From the IMG/VR virus record IMGVR_UViG_3300043429_000237, positions 1-21,474 of that record: a stretch of DNA of 21,474 nucleotides; one strand, given 5' to 3'. Below the pieces are notes generated by a model that made no database searches, was not told the DNA's origin, and worked only from the letters and a program-made list of their open reading frames with translations. Below are positions 1,332 to 5,535 of the stretch, piece after piece. Each line of letters starts with the position of its first letter. The first letter of the stretch is position 1. The translations under genes and the position numbers were made by a program. The DNA is from a virus.

Positions 1332-1944
1332 TGTTGTGAAGCGCAAGCCGGGCCGTCCGGCCAAGCCGCGTCCCGTTGAATCTGTGGAGGCTCATGTTGA
1401 CCCGATCAATGAAGTCGAGAGCGGTGCGGACGGCGATGCGGACGATGGTGACGCGGAGAGTGTGGCCGTCGTCTTCGGGGATGCTGTCGGACTTGATAGC
1501 GATGGGGTGGCTGAGGCTGACCCCCTTTCCCCGCGAGAAATAGAGGAAGCCAAGAATGTTCCGGCTTTACCTGATATTGGCGCATCGCTGCAAAAGCCTG
1601 AGCCGGTGCCGGTGCTGACACCTAAGCAAGTGGTCGCTCTTGATCTGGACTTTGACGGTGAGGCGGGCGGTTCGCGTCCGGTCGCCGGTCTGAGCGAGTT
1701 GCAGCGTGATGCGTTCGCCCATGATGCGATTGACGCATATGAGGGGCAAATCGAGGTCAAGCGCGTGGACGGGTTTAACCGCGTCTGGACGTTCCGCCAT
1801 GAGATTGTGAAGAGCCAGGATCATATGCTGGTCGAGTGCCGCCGTGGCCCGACCGTGGCTCAACGGCTGATTTCGTCTGCGCTGTTCACCAAGGGGCAAG
1901 CGATGGTGGCGATTGAGAGTGCGGATGCGGAGACTTCCCGTTGA
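1324..1944 (+). CDS. Hypothetical phage protein with basic N-terminus and acidic linker
   Basis: I do not recognise this 206-residue protein. It opens with a basic Pro-rich patch, KRKPGRPAKPRP, that looks like an AT-hook (GRP core). A long acidic low-complexity stretch of Asp, Glu and Ala follows (about residues 24-75). The C-terminal half, about residues 118-206, is ordinary globular sequence with aromatic and charged residues. The start ATG is preceded by GAGAGG at about 1310-1315. The gene overlaps the 31-aa ORF before it by 8 bases and the next gene by 4. It sits between terminase and portal, where phages often carry small accessory or packaging-related genes. The DNA-binding idea rests only on the short N-terminal motif. 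Confidence 0.75.
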   Translation: MVDVVKRKPGRPAKPRPVESVEAHVDPINEVESGADGDADDGDAESVAVVFGDAVGLDSDGVAEADPLSPREIEEAKNVPALPDIGASLQKPEPVPVLTPKQVVALDLDFDGEAGGSRPVAGLSELQRDAFAHDAIDAYEGQIEVKRVDGFNRVWTFRHEIVKSQDHMLVECRRGPTVAQRLISSALFTKGQAMVAIESADAETSR

Positions 1945-2258
1945 CCGTCAAAGCCAGCCAGATTGCAGCCGGACTGAAAGCCAAGGGCTACGCGGTCCAA
2001 TGGGCGCAAGAGACGCCTGATCAAATCGTGGTGTCGATTGATTTCATCCAGAACCCAGAACTGCCGTGGCTTCGCGCGTTTCATCTGGACGCGGCGGGGT
2101 CGGACGTGGGGACGTTCGTGGCTGAGATTGAGGCGTGGAAAGAGGATGTGCGAAAGCATCTGTCCTTTGGCGTCGCCTCGCCCGTCGTGCAGCAGGTCAT
2201 TGCCCATTACGGCATCAAGCGGACTAAACAGGCCATAAAGGCGATTGAGCATGTCTGA
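1941..2258 (+). CDS. Hypothetical 105-aa protein with TTG start
   Basis: This is a small protein with no family I can name. The likely start is a TTG fused to the previous stop (TTGA at 1941-1944), with GGAG about eight bases upstream at 1929-1932. No ATG lies near the start of the open frame. The sequence reads as a compact domain: an N-terminal helix (SQIAAGLKAKGY), a beta-rich centre with Trp residues, and a basic C-terminal helix (YGIKRTKQAIKAIEHV). Its end overlaps the HNH gene by 8 bases in the string ATGTCTGA. It is probably co-translated with its neighbours. Function is unknown. Confidence 0.7.
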   Translation: MTVKASQIAAGLKAKGYAVQWAQETPDQIVVSIDFIQNPELPWLRAFHLDAAGSDVGTFVAEIEAWKEDVRKHLSFGVASPVVQQVIAHYGIKRTKQAIKAIEHV

Positions 2259-2733
2259 CGAAGGCCCGAACTTTGAAGGTCCGGACGACCTGCTGGCCAA
2301 GCTGACGGATTCGGTCGAGTACGACACCGTGTCCGGGTGTTGGCTTTGGGCTGGCACTGTTAGCAAAGGCGGATACGGCAGCGTTCGTCGGAGCGGCAAG
2401 TCGTGGCTTGCGCACCGCTTGGCATGGGCAGCGGTCAACGGCCCGATCACAAACGGCCTTCATGTCTGCCACCGCTGCGATACGCCCGCTTGCATCAATC
2501 CCGCCCATCTCTTCCTCGGGACGGCTAAGGACAACATGGCGGACCGCAAGGCCAAGGGTCGGTGCGCGTCTCATGTTGGCGCGCTCAACGGACGTGCGCG
2601 GCTGAATGAGGACGCGGTTCGGGCTATCCGTTGCAGCGACTTGCCGTTTACGGAGTTGGCGCGGCAATATGGCGTTACGCCTGAGGCGGTAGGGTATGCC
2701 GCTCGCGGCCAGACTTGGGGACACGTTACATGA
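2251..2733 (+). CDS. Free-standing HNH endonuclease (HNH_3-like, possible homing nuclease)
   Basis: This is a probable DNA-nicking or cutting enzyme of the HNH family, often mobile in phages. From ATG 2251 the protein has 160 residues. The core runs from about residue 55 (HRLAWAAVNGPI) through HVCHRCDTPACINPAHLFLG at 71-90. His74, Asn83 and His86 are the likely active-site residues, and Cys73, Cys76 and Cys81 are possible metal ligands. The C-terminal part (about 118-160) looks like a small helix-turn-helix (FTELARQYGVTPEAVGY), common in homing HNH enzymes for target binding. An in-frame TTG six bases upstream is possible, but ATG fits the AAAGG at 2237-2241 better. Its first ~18 residues strongly resemble those of the portal that follows it; see the findings. 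The portal ATG overlaps its stop (ATGA). Confidence 0.88.
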   Translation: MSDEGPNFEGPDDLLAKLTDSVEYDTVSGCWLWAGTVSKGGYGSVRRSGKSWLAHRLAWAAVNGPITNGLHVCHRCDTPACINPAHLFLGTAKDNMADRKAKGRCASHVGALNGRARLNEDAVRAIRCSDLPFTELARQYGVTPEAVGYAARGQTWGHVT

Positions 2734-4643
2734 CCGACAACGAGGGTCCGCAGTTTGACGGCGATTCCGACAAACTTCTGGCAAAGCTAGAGGGGTGGCG
2801 GAGGGACGCTGATCAGCATTGGAGCACGTGGAAACAAGAGGCTAGGGAAGATTTTGACTTTGTGGCCGGTCGCCAATGGGCGCAGGAAGCCATTGCGGAG
2901 ATGGAGGAACAGAACCGCATTCCGGTGACGTTCAACCGCGTTGAGCCGACGATTGACGCCGTGTCTGGCGCTGAAATCATGGGCCGTCAGGAGGTGACTT
3001 ATCTGCCTCGCACGGTGAATGACACCGGCGTTACGGACGTGCTGTCGCAAGGCGCTCAATGGCTGCGCCAATCGTGCGACGCTGAGGATGAGGAATCGGA
3101 ATCGTGCCGGGATACGCTGATCTGCGGCATTGGCGCGACTGAAACCCGCGTTAGCTACGATGAAGAACCGGACGGGCAAATCATCATTGAGCGGTGCGAC
3201 CCGCTACAGTTCTCGGTCGATCCGTCGTCTCGCAAGGCCAACTTTGCCGATGCGCGGTATGTCGTCCGTGAAATCCCCATGTCGAGGGAGCAAGCGGAGG
3301 AAGAGTTCGGCGATCTGGACTTTGACCTTGTGGATTCGACCACGCAGCGCCAGCCGACTGTCGTTGACCCACAAGTCCGTTACAAGAACGGTGAGAGCGA
3401 CCAAGGCAACCCGAACGAGGTCCAGGTTTGCGAGTATCAGTGGTTTGACACTTACCATGTGAACCGCATTCAGAACCCGATGACGGGTGAAGAGGCTGAG
3501 GTTGACGATGAAACGCTAGAAGCCGCGATGGCGGAAATGCCCGGCGTTGAGCTTAACCCCGTCCGGCAGAAGCGTCGTCGGTATTGGAAAGCGTTTGTGG
3601 TGGCCGGTGAGGTTCACGACAAGACGGAGATTGAGGCGGGTAAGTTCACCTATACGTTCATCACCGGCAAGCGTGACCGAAACAAGGGGACGTATTACGG
3701 CCTTGTCCGACCGATGAAAGACCCGCAACGGTTCGCTAACAAGTTCTTTTCGTCCATGCTGGAACAGTTCATCAAGGGCGCTAAAGGCGGCGTGATGGCT
3801 GAGGAAGGCGCGGTTGCGGACCAGCGCCAATTCGAGAACAGTTGGGCACAGACGGACGCGATTACATGGGTGCCGAACGGCTCGCTTAGCCAGAACCGCA
3901 TTCAGGAGAAGCCTAATCAGCCAATCAGCCCGGCGCTTCCCCCGATGCTGGAGTTTTCCGTCGCGTCGATCCGCGACGTTACGGGCGTGAACCTAGAGCT
4001 TCTGGGCATGGCGGACCGGCAGCAGCCGGGAGTGCTGGAGCATCAGCGCAAACAGGCGGCTTACGGCATTCTGTCCGCGTTCTTTAACGCGTTCAGGCGG
4101 TATCGGAAGATACAAGGCCGACTGATGCTCAAGATGATGCAACTGTATCTCCCGCCTGACCAGCTTGTGCGGATTGTGGGGGATGATGGTGAGGCCAAAT
4201 ACGTCCCGCTCGCGCTGTCGCAAGAGGTGCAGGAGTATGACGTGGTGGTTGATGAGGCTCCGTCGTCTCCGAACCAGAAAGAGCGCGTGTTCGCTATCCT
4301 CACGCAGTTCCAAGGGATGTTCGGAGAGGCGTCGCCAGAGATTATTGCGGAGATTGTCCGCTATAGCCCGCTGCCTGCCGCGCTGAGCGAGAAGATTGTG
4401 AAGAGCCTGATGACCCCTCCCCCGCCCGACCCTGCGGCTGAAAAGGCTGCTGCGCTCGGCATGGCCCAGATGGAGCAATCCGTCCGCAAGACGGCGAGCG
4501 AGGCGACGAAGAACGAGGCTCAGGCGCAACAGAGCGACGCTGAGGCGGCGAGAGACTTGACGGAGGCCATGCGGAACGATGCAGAGGCTTCCCTGATGCA
4601 AACCGTGACCAATCTTTCAGGAGGGATGAACCCCAATGTCTGA
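2730..4643 (+). CDS. P22-type portal protein
   Basis: This protein should form the ring at the packaging vertex through which DNA enters and leaves. It has 637 residues, close to the roughly 700 typical of P22-type portals. Supporting stretches are the N-terminal WKQEAREDFDFVAGRQW (34-50), the VEPTIDAVSG segment of the clip and wing region, and the basic RQKRRRYWKAFVVAGEV block. The last is followed by GTYYGLVRPMKDPQRFANKF, which matches the equivalent P22 portal region in pattern. The last ~80 residues are Ala/Gln/Glu-rich helix, like the barrel of P22 portal. ATG 2730 is chosen because GGGG precedes it at 2717-2720 and it forms an ATGA overlap with the HNH stop. An upstream TTG at 2715 is less likely. 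It overlaps the scaffold gene by 8 bases. Confidence 0.92.
   Translation: MTDNEGPQFDGDSDKLLAKLEGWRRDADQHWSTWKQEAREDFDFVAGRQWAQEAIAEMEEQNRIPVTFNRVEPTIDAVSGAEIMGRQEVTYLPRTVNDTGVTDVLSQGAQWLRQSCDAEDEESESCRDTLICGIGATETRVSYDEEPDGQIIIERCDPLQFSVDPSSRKANFADARYVVREIPMSREQAEEEFGDLDFDLVDSTTQRQPTVVDPQVRYKNGESDQGNPNEVQVCEYQWFDTYHVNRIQNPMTGEEAEVDDETLEAAMAEMPGVELNPVRQKRRRYWKAFVVAGEVHDKTEIEAGKFTYTFITGKRDRNKGTYYGLVRPMKDPQRFANKFFSSMLEQFIKGAKGGVMAEEGAVADQRQFENSWAQTDAITWVPNGSLSQNRIQEKPNQPISPALPPMLEFSVASIRDVTGVNLELLGMADRQQPGVLEHQRKQAAYGILSAFFNAFRRYRKIQGRLMLKMMQLYLPPDQLVRIVGDDGEAKYVPLALSQEVQEYDVVVDEAPSSPNQKERVFAILTQFQGMFGEASPEIIAEIVRYSPLPAALSEKIVKSLMTPPPPDPAAEKAAALGMAQMEQSVRKTASEATKNEAQAQQSDAEAARDLTEAMRNDAEASLMQTVTNLSGGMNPNV
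4618..4625 (+). promoter_or_regulatory. Strong Shine-Dalgarno site for the scaffold gene
   Basis: CAGGAGGG at the 3' end of the portal gene is the closest match to the anti-SD sequence I noticed in the window. It lies ten bases before ATG 4636. This supports that start and suggests high translation, as expected for a scaffold made in excess over the portal. Confidence 0.7.
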
Positions 4644-5535
4644 CGTTTCCTACGAAGAGCAAAGCGACGACGGTTTTGAGGCGGAGATGGACGAAGCCCG
4701 TCAGGCTCAAGAGCAAGACGATGCCGGAGGCGATGAAGGCGAGGCAGATGATGCGCCCGCTGAAAAGCCTGCCGTCTCCAAGGACGTGGAGAAGCTTGAG
4801 CGCGTAGCCGCTGACAAGTCTCGCATGGCCCATGCGGAGCGTCGCCAACGCCAGGCTGCTGAGGCTCGTGCGGAGGCGCTTGAGGCGCGGCTGGCGGCTC
4901 TTGAAGGCCGTGGCCGTGGCAATGATGACGTTGACCTGTCGGCCATTCCCGATGTGGAAACGGACCCTATCGGCAACATTGAGGCCCTGCGGAAGATTGC
5001 GCTCAAACTGACGCAGCGCGAGCAAGAGACACAACGGGCGACGCAGGCCCAGACCGCACAACAGCGCCAGTTCCAGCAAATCAATGCGCGGATGCAGGAG
5101 TATGAGGCGGATTTCATCGAGACAAACCCCGATTACAACGATGCAGCCAAGCATTTCCGTGAGGCCCGCATTTTGGAGCTTCAAGAGCAGGGTTATGACG
5201 GCGATGAACTGACTGCGGCCCTGACTACCGAACTGGTCGGGCTTGTGGCGCGGTCGCTTCAATCCGGCAAAGACCCTGCGGAAGTCGTTTACAAACTGGC
5301 AAAAAATCGCGGCTTTAGCGGCGTTGCGGGAAAGTCTAACCCGGCACAGGTTGACAAACTTGGAAAAAGGTTGGAAACGATTGACCGAGGCCAGAAGGCT
5401 TCACGCTCCCTCAGCGGAATGAGCGGCAAGATGGGCGACGGTGAGTTGTCTGCGGAGTCGGTCACGAGGCTTGAAGGGGCGGCGTTCGATGCGGCGTTTG
5501 CCAAGTTGCGTTCGCAGCAGCGTCGGGCGGGATAG
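4636..5535 (+). CDS. Putative capsid scaffolding protein
   Basis: This is likely the internal scaffold on which the major capsid protein assembles. The call rests on position between portal and capsid genes and on composition, not on a specific motif. The 299-residue protein starts with a strongly acidic segment (about 1-45). A long charged Ala/Arg/Glu/Gln helix likely to form a coiled coil follows (about 50-95), then a second Gln-rich helix (about 120-160). A more compact part near 160-240 contains ETNPDYNDAAKHF, a pattern common in phage scaffold and capsid-associated proteins. The end is basic (RSQQRRAG), which is usual for scaffold tails that bind coat protein. It starts inside the portal gene (ATGTCTGA overlap) and is followed by 109 non-coding bases before the capsid gene. 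Confidence 0.72.
   Translation: MSDVSYEEQSDDGFEAEMDEARQAQEQDDAGGDEGEADDAPAEKPAVSKDVEKLERVAADKSRMAHAERRQRQAAEARAEALEARLAALEGRGRGNDDVDLSAIPDVETDPIGNIEALRKIALKLTQREQETQRATQAQTAQQRQFQQINARMQEYEADFIETNPDYNDAAKHFREARILELQEQGYDGDELTAALTTELVGLVARSLQSGKDPAEVVYKLAKNRGFSGVAGKSNPAQVDKLGKRLETIDRGQKASRSLSGMSGKMGDGELSAESVTRLEGAAFDAAFAKLRSQQRRAG

Follow-up and report, generated by a model that had tools for sequence, protein, structure and literature searches.

The window, a stretch of 21,474 bp from an IMG/VR virus record and the whole of the DNA analysed here, carries an HNH endonuclease gene immediately upstream of a P22-type portal gene. The portal ORF (2730–4643, 637 aa; Pfam P22_portal, E=1.8e-104) and the HNH ORF overlap as ATGA. 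A portal-based scan recovered two close relatives, L002 and L003 (98% and 97% identity over the best segment), and the more distant L004–L007. Against these the locus can be broken down into the following features.

1941–2258, + strand: gene for a 105-aa protein, upstream, resident DNA; it shares its final codons with the captured portal start.
2231–2250, + strand: resident portal leader and ribosome-binding region (AAAGG ... ATG), now that of the HNH gene; same as the L002 portal leader.
2251–2306, + strand: 5′ end of the resident portal gene (18 codons and 2 further bases), which has become the HNH N-terminus; equivalent to L002 2995–3050.
2251–2733, + strand: HNH_3 endonuclease ORF, 160 aa, an in-frame fusion to the resident portal start (Pfam HNH_3, E=1.6e-12).
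2307–2854, + strand: inserted or replaced segment of 548 bp, comprising the HNH body and the putatively foreign portal tip, delimited by comparison with L002 and L003 and by blastn breakpoints.
2730–2854, + strand: putatively imported (foreign) portal 5′ tip, about 42 codons, whose own ATG overlaps the HNH stop.
2855–4643, + strand: resident body of the P22-type portal, about 90–100% identical in nucleotides to L002 (60-bp blocks).

HNH_3 nucleases are homing-type enzymes. The window protein belongs to this family (PF13392), scoring 47.3 bits against a Pfam gathering cut-off of 24.8, and residues C30, H55, R56, H74, C76, D77, C81 and H86 are invariant in an alignment of 53 HNH sequences. AlphaFold modelled the protein with a mean pLDDT of 91. 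In this model residues 1–10 are of low confidence, the portal-derived residues 11–19 open the fold as a confidently predicted helix, and the captured portal end may thus be structurally tolerated or used by the HNH protein; a GTG at 2329 provides an alternative start. The top Foldseek match was I-HmuI (PDB 1u3e; probability 1.00, E=1.1e-3, TM-score only 0.39, 18% identity), which is the closest solved fold but, unlike the window HNH, is intron-encoded. A group I or II intron-encoded nuclease was rejected, as no ribozyme or other RNA family was matched in 1900–3300 (Rfam, E≤1) and the insert at 2307–2854 consists almost entirely of HNH and portal coding sequence. An intein was likewise rejected; the HNH frame ends at a stop codon, the portal restarts from its own ATG and no intein family was found in the HNH protein by Pfam.

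A preliminary description of this DNA had remarked that the HNH protein and the portal start alike, with base differences concentrated at third codon positions, and this is borne out. The HNH tip MSD-EGPNFEG-PDDLLAKL aligns to the portal tip MTDNEGPQFDGDSDKLLAKL with 13/20 columns identical and two one-residue gaps, and 11 of the 15 base differences between them fall at third codon positions. When the HNH N-terminus was shuffled 20,000 times, no shuffle reached the observed score against the portal tip. Comparison of the N-termini of 294 family HNHs with the same tip gave a score of 48 for the window HNH and 32 for the next best, and upstream of the GCWLW motif the family N-termini are variable. 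Since no shuffle scored as high and no other N-terminus came near, the match is neither chance nor a family trait, and a short motif common to many phage proteins does not account for it either.

The relatives reveal which of the two tips is the older occupant. Both L002 and L003 lack the HNH gene and run from the 105-aa gene straight into a single portal start, as the preliminary description had anticipated for relatives without the nuclease, and no HNH of the same family was found in the stretches of either that were examined. DNA around the locus is collinear and 93–96% identical to L002 and L003; the 105-aa protein shares 97% of its residues with its L002 counterpart and its gene is mostly 90–98% identical in DNA (60-bp blocks). 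The small terminase-like genes of the two relatives differ and appear unrelated (L002 295–672, L003 136–531), upstream of large terminase genes that are nearly identical. A gene for 73–76 aa precedes the portal in L004 (2477–2707) and L005 (2772–2993), in L005 in place of the 105-aa gene; the window has no such gene.

Between window positions 2251 and 2306 all 56 of 56 nucleotides are identical to the 5′ end of the L002 portal gene, and base-by-base comparison and blastn breakpoints agree that homology to L002 and L003 ends exactly at 2306. The final mismatch of the divergent stretch lies at 2854, beyond which the next 100 codons are 99% identical to L002. Thus 548 bp of the window (2307–2854) stand against 63 bp in L002 (3051–3113). 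Over the codons compared, the tip fused to the HNH matches L002 at 54/54 nucleotides and the window's own portal tip at 69%. The leader that served the resident portal start, AAAGGCGATTGAGCATG, is now that of the HNH gene. It had been proposed that the nuclease gene invaded the portal 5′ end and kept a portal-derived start with its translation signals, and the identity of both fragment and leader to L002 upholds this. The polarity must be reversed in one respect: the nuclease was said to carry a copy of the portal end, yet it holds the resident original, and the tip on the portal itself is the one that appears foreign. Two possibilities had been offered for the divergence, an old event or import from another phage together with its portal tip. 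The data favour import; an old event finds no support, given that the captured end has stayed identical to L002 at 56/56 positions.

The portal gene is now a chimera of a divergent tip and a resident body. Its tip (2730–2854) shares 67% of nucleotides with L002, 63% with L004 and 56% with L005, against 99% for the adjacent body and L002. A history in which the resident start was captured by the HNH gene and a divergent, imported tip placed on the portal is strongly supported by these alignments. That the tip is foreign we infer from its divergence, as no donor phage carrying it was found: two degenerate DNA patterns run against viral contigs returned 13 unrelated loci and no donor, and only one of these loci (L026) had a portal, a remote one. 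A search with a third pattern, matching the resident-type tip, gave the three known relatives plus three loci that had no portal match. No portal relatives were found in genome contigs, and no annotated phage exceeded 60% portal identity.

Failure to find a donor would also be expected if the portal tip had been duplicated in tandem within the lineage and the working copy had diverged fast, for example to escape cleavage, with no foreign DNA involved. The tip is indeed the fastest-evolving part of the portal among the relatives, L002 and L004 being 71% identical in the tip and 82% in the body. However, so fast a divergence inside one lineage is implausible, because the tip is at 67% to L002 while the adjoining body is at 99%, and the tip also differs by two additional codons and numerous synonymous substitutions. 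We therefore regard such a duplication as very improbable. Less credible still is a chimera made during assembly, to which a record from an uncultivated virus is in principle open. The two tips, at 69% identity, are too divergent for an assembler to confuse, reading frames are intact over both junctions, and contigs independent of this one, among them a genome contig (L268), show like structures; we give this explanation next to no weight.

These like structures came from a survey of HNH relatives gathered from phage records and from viral and genome contigs, amounting to 294 distinct HNH_3-family loci. At each, the DNA just upstream of the HNH core was compared at the protein level with that just downstream of the stop, with mispaired flanks as the control. 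Flank similarity of at least 50 was observed at 8/294 loci, where mispaired flanks predict 0.33, and of at least 55 at 6 loci, where 0.08 are expected; as an estimate of frequency this rate is not free of bias, because the alignments of the later scans included L066, L070 and L115. Six of the eight high scorers are credible end duplications (the window, L066, L070, L115, L147 and L268), and the remaining two, L138 and L233, were set aside as low-complexity alignments. Inspection added a seventh credible locus, L308. Six loci beyond the window thus carry a duplicated end of a neighbouring gene.

Window: portal gene, 5′ end.
L070: 5′ end; MTFNRDVNCYRATPRS begins the HNH and MFSKDINCYRKTARTM the gene after it, and the two have similar GGAGG leaders.
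L308: 5′ end; TKIAWTENT is found in the HNH, and MSNKTKIAWTERT opens the DUF5131 gene that follows it.
L066: 3′ end; the upstream gene ends GPLPATIADTMTLLKKYGD, and a leftover GPLPATIAETMTLLRKYGGN lies downstream of the HNH.
L115: 3′ end.
L147: 3′ end, of a DUF968-like gene.
L268: 3′ end, of a Rad52-like gene, in a genome contig.

In L308 the N-terminus of the HNH is the DUF5131 start TKIAWTE. Synonymous codon differences outnumber nonsynonymous ones between the duplicate ends in L066 (14/2), L308 (6/1), L115 (7/3) and L147 (9/6). Third-position or synonymous changes clearly dominate in these four and in the window, and weakly in L070 and L268. In the five clear cases, then, the protein end has been kept while its DNA has diverged. 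Resident and imported ends can be told apart for the window only, because for the other six no close relatives free of the HNH were found: annotated phages offered no close empty relatives of L070, L147 or L308, and the Rad52-like relative of L268, at 57%, is too distant to polarise the event.

Other high scorers (L299, L155, L284 and others like them) were dismissed because their alignments were of low complexity or in the wrong frame. L258 was rejected as an end duplication, being a pair of HNH paralogues; these stand in tandem at 4105–5100 with near-identical leaders and N-terminal segments. The HNHs of the T7-like isolates CR44b, PH1061, CHF1, P413, LL2, Tarrare, PCW2 and ST20 carry no neighbour's end, and the other HNHs of the phages that hold L070 and L066 show no end duplication. 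The 61-kb record containing L070 (G001) has five matches to the HNH query, and a duplicated gene end was seen only at that of L070. In L147 (3451–3453) and L115 (3431–3453) the leftover 3′ gene end and the tail of the HNH frame overlap, and the nuclease gene may take its stop codon from this leftover. A different overlap is found in T7-like phages (L034 2905, L041 2911, L037 2878, L038 2986), where the stretch encoding the conserved HNH C-terminus (R-R/G-K-x-W-x-H-V) shares bases with the ATG and ribosome-binding site of the gene that follows, as in AGGAGAAAGACATGGCGACACG, such that the end of the nuclease doubles as its neighbour's start signal.

The main rival to a nuclease-driven origin is illegitimate or unequal recombination, in which the nuclease played no part: a donor phage whose HNH gene lay just upstream of the portal would have recombined with the resident portal in the wrong register, and the old tip would have stayed in front of the HNH. 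Phage genomes are mosaics, the left junction lacks obvious long homology, and such an event would leave an identical scar beside the HNH gene. Seven loci at which one nuclease family adjoins different target genes, at 5′ and at 3′ ends, are hard to obtain by random recombination alone, and we consider this account unlikely, though deserving of more weight than any other alternative. The fusion might instead be functional: its portal tip could guide the enzyme to the procapsid or portal, or the protein could be a packaging nuclease of the terminase–portal type. A part in packaging has been suggested for HNH genes of other phages that lie between TerL and portal (HrdP; PMC12724721), and the portal-derived helix is confidently modelled within the HNH fold. 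However, L002 and L003 do without the HNH at this locus despite 97–98% portal identity, which led us to reject a terminase-associated nuclease of the HrdP/GVE2 type. Moreover, the fused end is merely that of the local resident, and family members elsewhere carry the ends of unrelated genes (Rad52-like, DUF5131). A functional fusion is accordingly most improbable, a shade more so than tandem duplication.

Close parallels to the window exist outside phages. In yeast FBA1 (Torulaspora, Lachancea), each integration of a WHO element replaces the 3′ end of the gene and leaves the old end downstream, and its authors regard this as a third structural class of homing besides introns and inteins (PMC7282813). 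As in those loci, a free-standing nuclease gene lies in the window between a fragment of the target (2251–2306) and an intact, full-length chimeric portal (2730–4643), one end of which has been exchanged for a divergent allele (PMC7282813). The parts compare with L002 as an imported end and a resident remainder should (fragment 100%, body 99%, tip 67%), the donor itself not having been found. The two differ in that WHO elements replace the 3′ end, in eukaryotes, with allele-specific cleavage demonstrated (PMC7282813), whereas in the window the 5′ end is replaced and the putative cutter is a phage HNH_3 protein; the 3′ arrangement occurs here at L066, L115, L147 and L268. WHO proteins are intein-derived and contain zinc fingers. 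The window protein is hence not a WHO protein, but may work alike, and in the window, unlike the WHO loci, the leftover fragment has become the N-terminus of the nuclease.

In the mitochondria of Glomus and Allomyces, mobile endonuclease ORFs come with the same signature of duplicated ends; imported ends there have 64–81% DNA identity with near-identical protein, and native ends, on the far side of the nuclease, are 91–98% identical to relatives (PMC3630166). Those ORFs differ from the window in replacing C-terminal ends, in encoding LAGLIDADG or GIY-YIG nucleases and in residing in fungal mitochondria (PMC3630166). Among phages, the Seg and Mob nucleases of T4-type genomes are likewise free-standing, lie between or overlap host genes and bring about co-conversion of flanks, and in Aeh1 a MobE gene is inserted inside nrdA; in the portion of the source covered here they insert between genes or split a target, unlike the swapped end of the window with the old end as nuclease start (PMC2988022). 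Hidden HNHs of the ShiLan type are similarly inserted in a phage gene, a methylase, with no splicing element, but are read through within the target in another frame, and the part of that account covered here does not describe a duplicated end (PMC11855218). The preliminary description knew of no such case for a virion gene. The open-access literature, most subscription journals being outside its scope, yielded no description of end replacement in phages; parallels in mechanism are described for yeast FBA1 (PMC7282813) and fungal mitochondria (PMC3630166).

Taken together, the pattern across loci and the analogy with these systems make a nuclease-driven mechanism the best explanation. We think it probable that the resident portal gene was invaded at codon 19/20 by an HNH_3 element that brought along the divergent portal 5′ end of another phage. 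The HNH would nick or cut the resident portal near that codon, and repair from the donor phage would install the nuclease and the donor portal tip together. As the donor tip would encode the same protein end in different DNA, the new portal would escape cutting. The resident end left behind would be kept as a ready translation start for the nuclease, and in a next round it may act as the homology arm on the left. By analogy this is best read as WHO logic, known from the 3′ end of FBA1, transposed to the 5′ end of a gene. What would be new is that the swapped end is the 5′ end and the setting a phage; the kind of homing is already known.

We put the odds at about even that phages host such elements as a general class. 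Each would be an HNH_3 nuclease travelling with a copy of one end of its target, 5′ or 3′, that resists cutting; every transfer would put this copy in place of the recipient's own end, and the fragment left over would lend the nuclease a start or a stop codon. If so, essential genes of phages, the portal gene among them, would have ends that evolve through repeated replacement, and phages would gain, in 5′ and 3′ versions, the homing strategy that the WHO authors placed in a third structural class. The locus suggests a route by which the ends of essential virion genes may be recombined and nuclease genes may acquire translation signals. It may also explain why the history of gene ends can depart from that of gene bodies.
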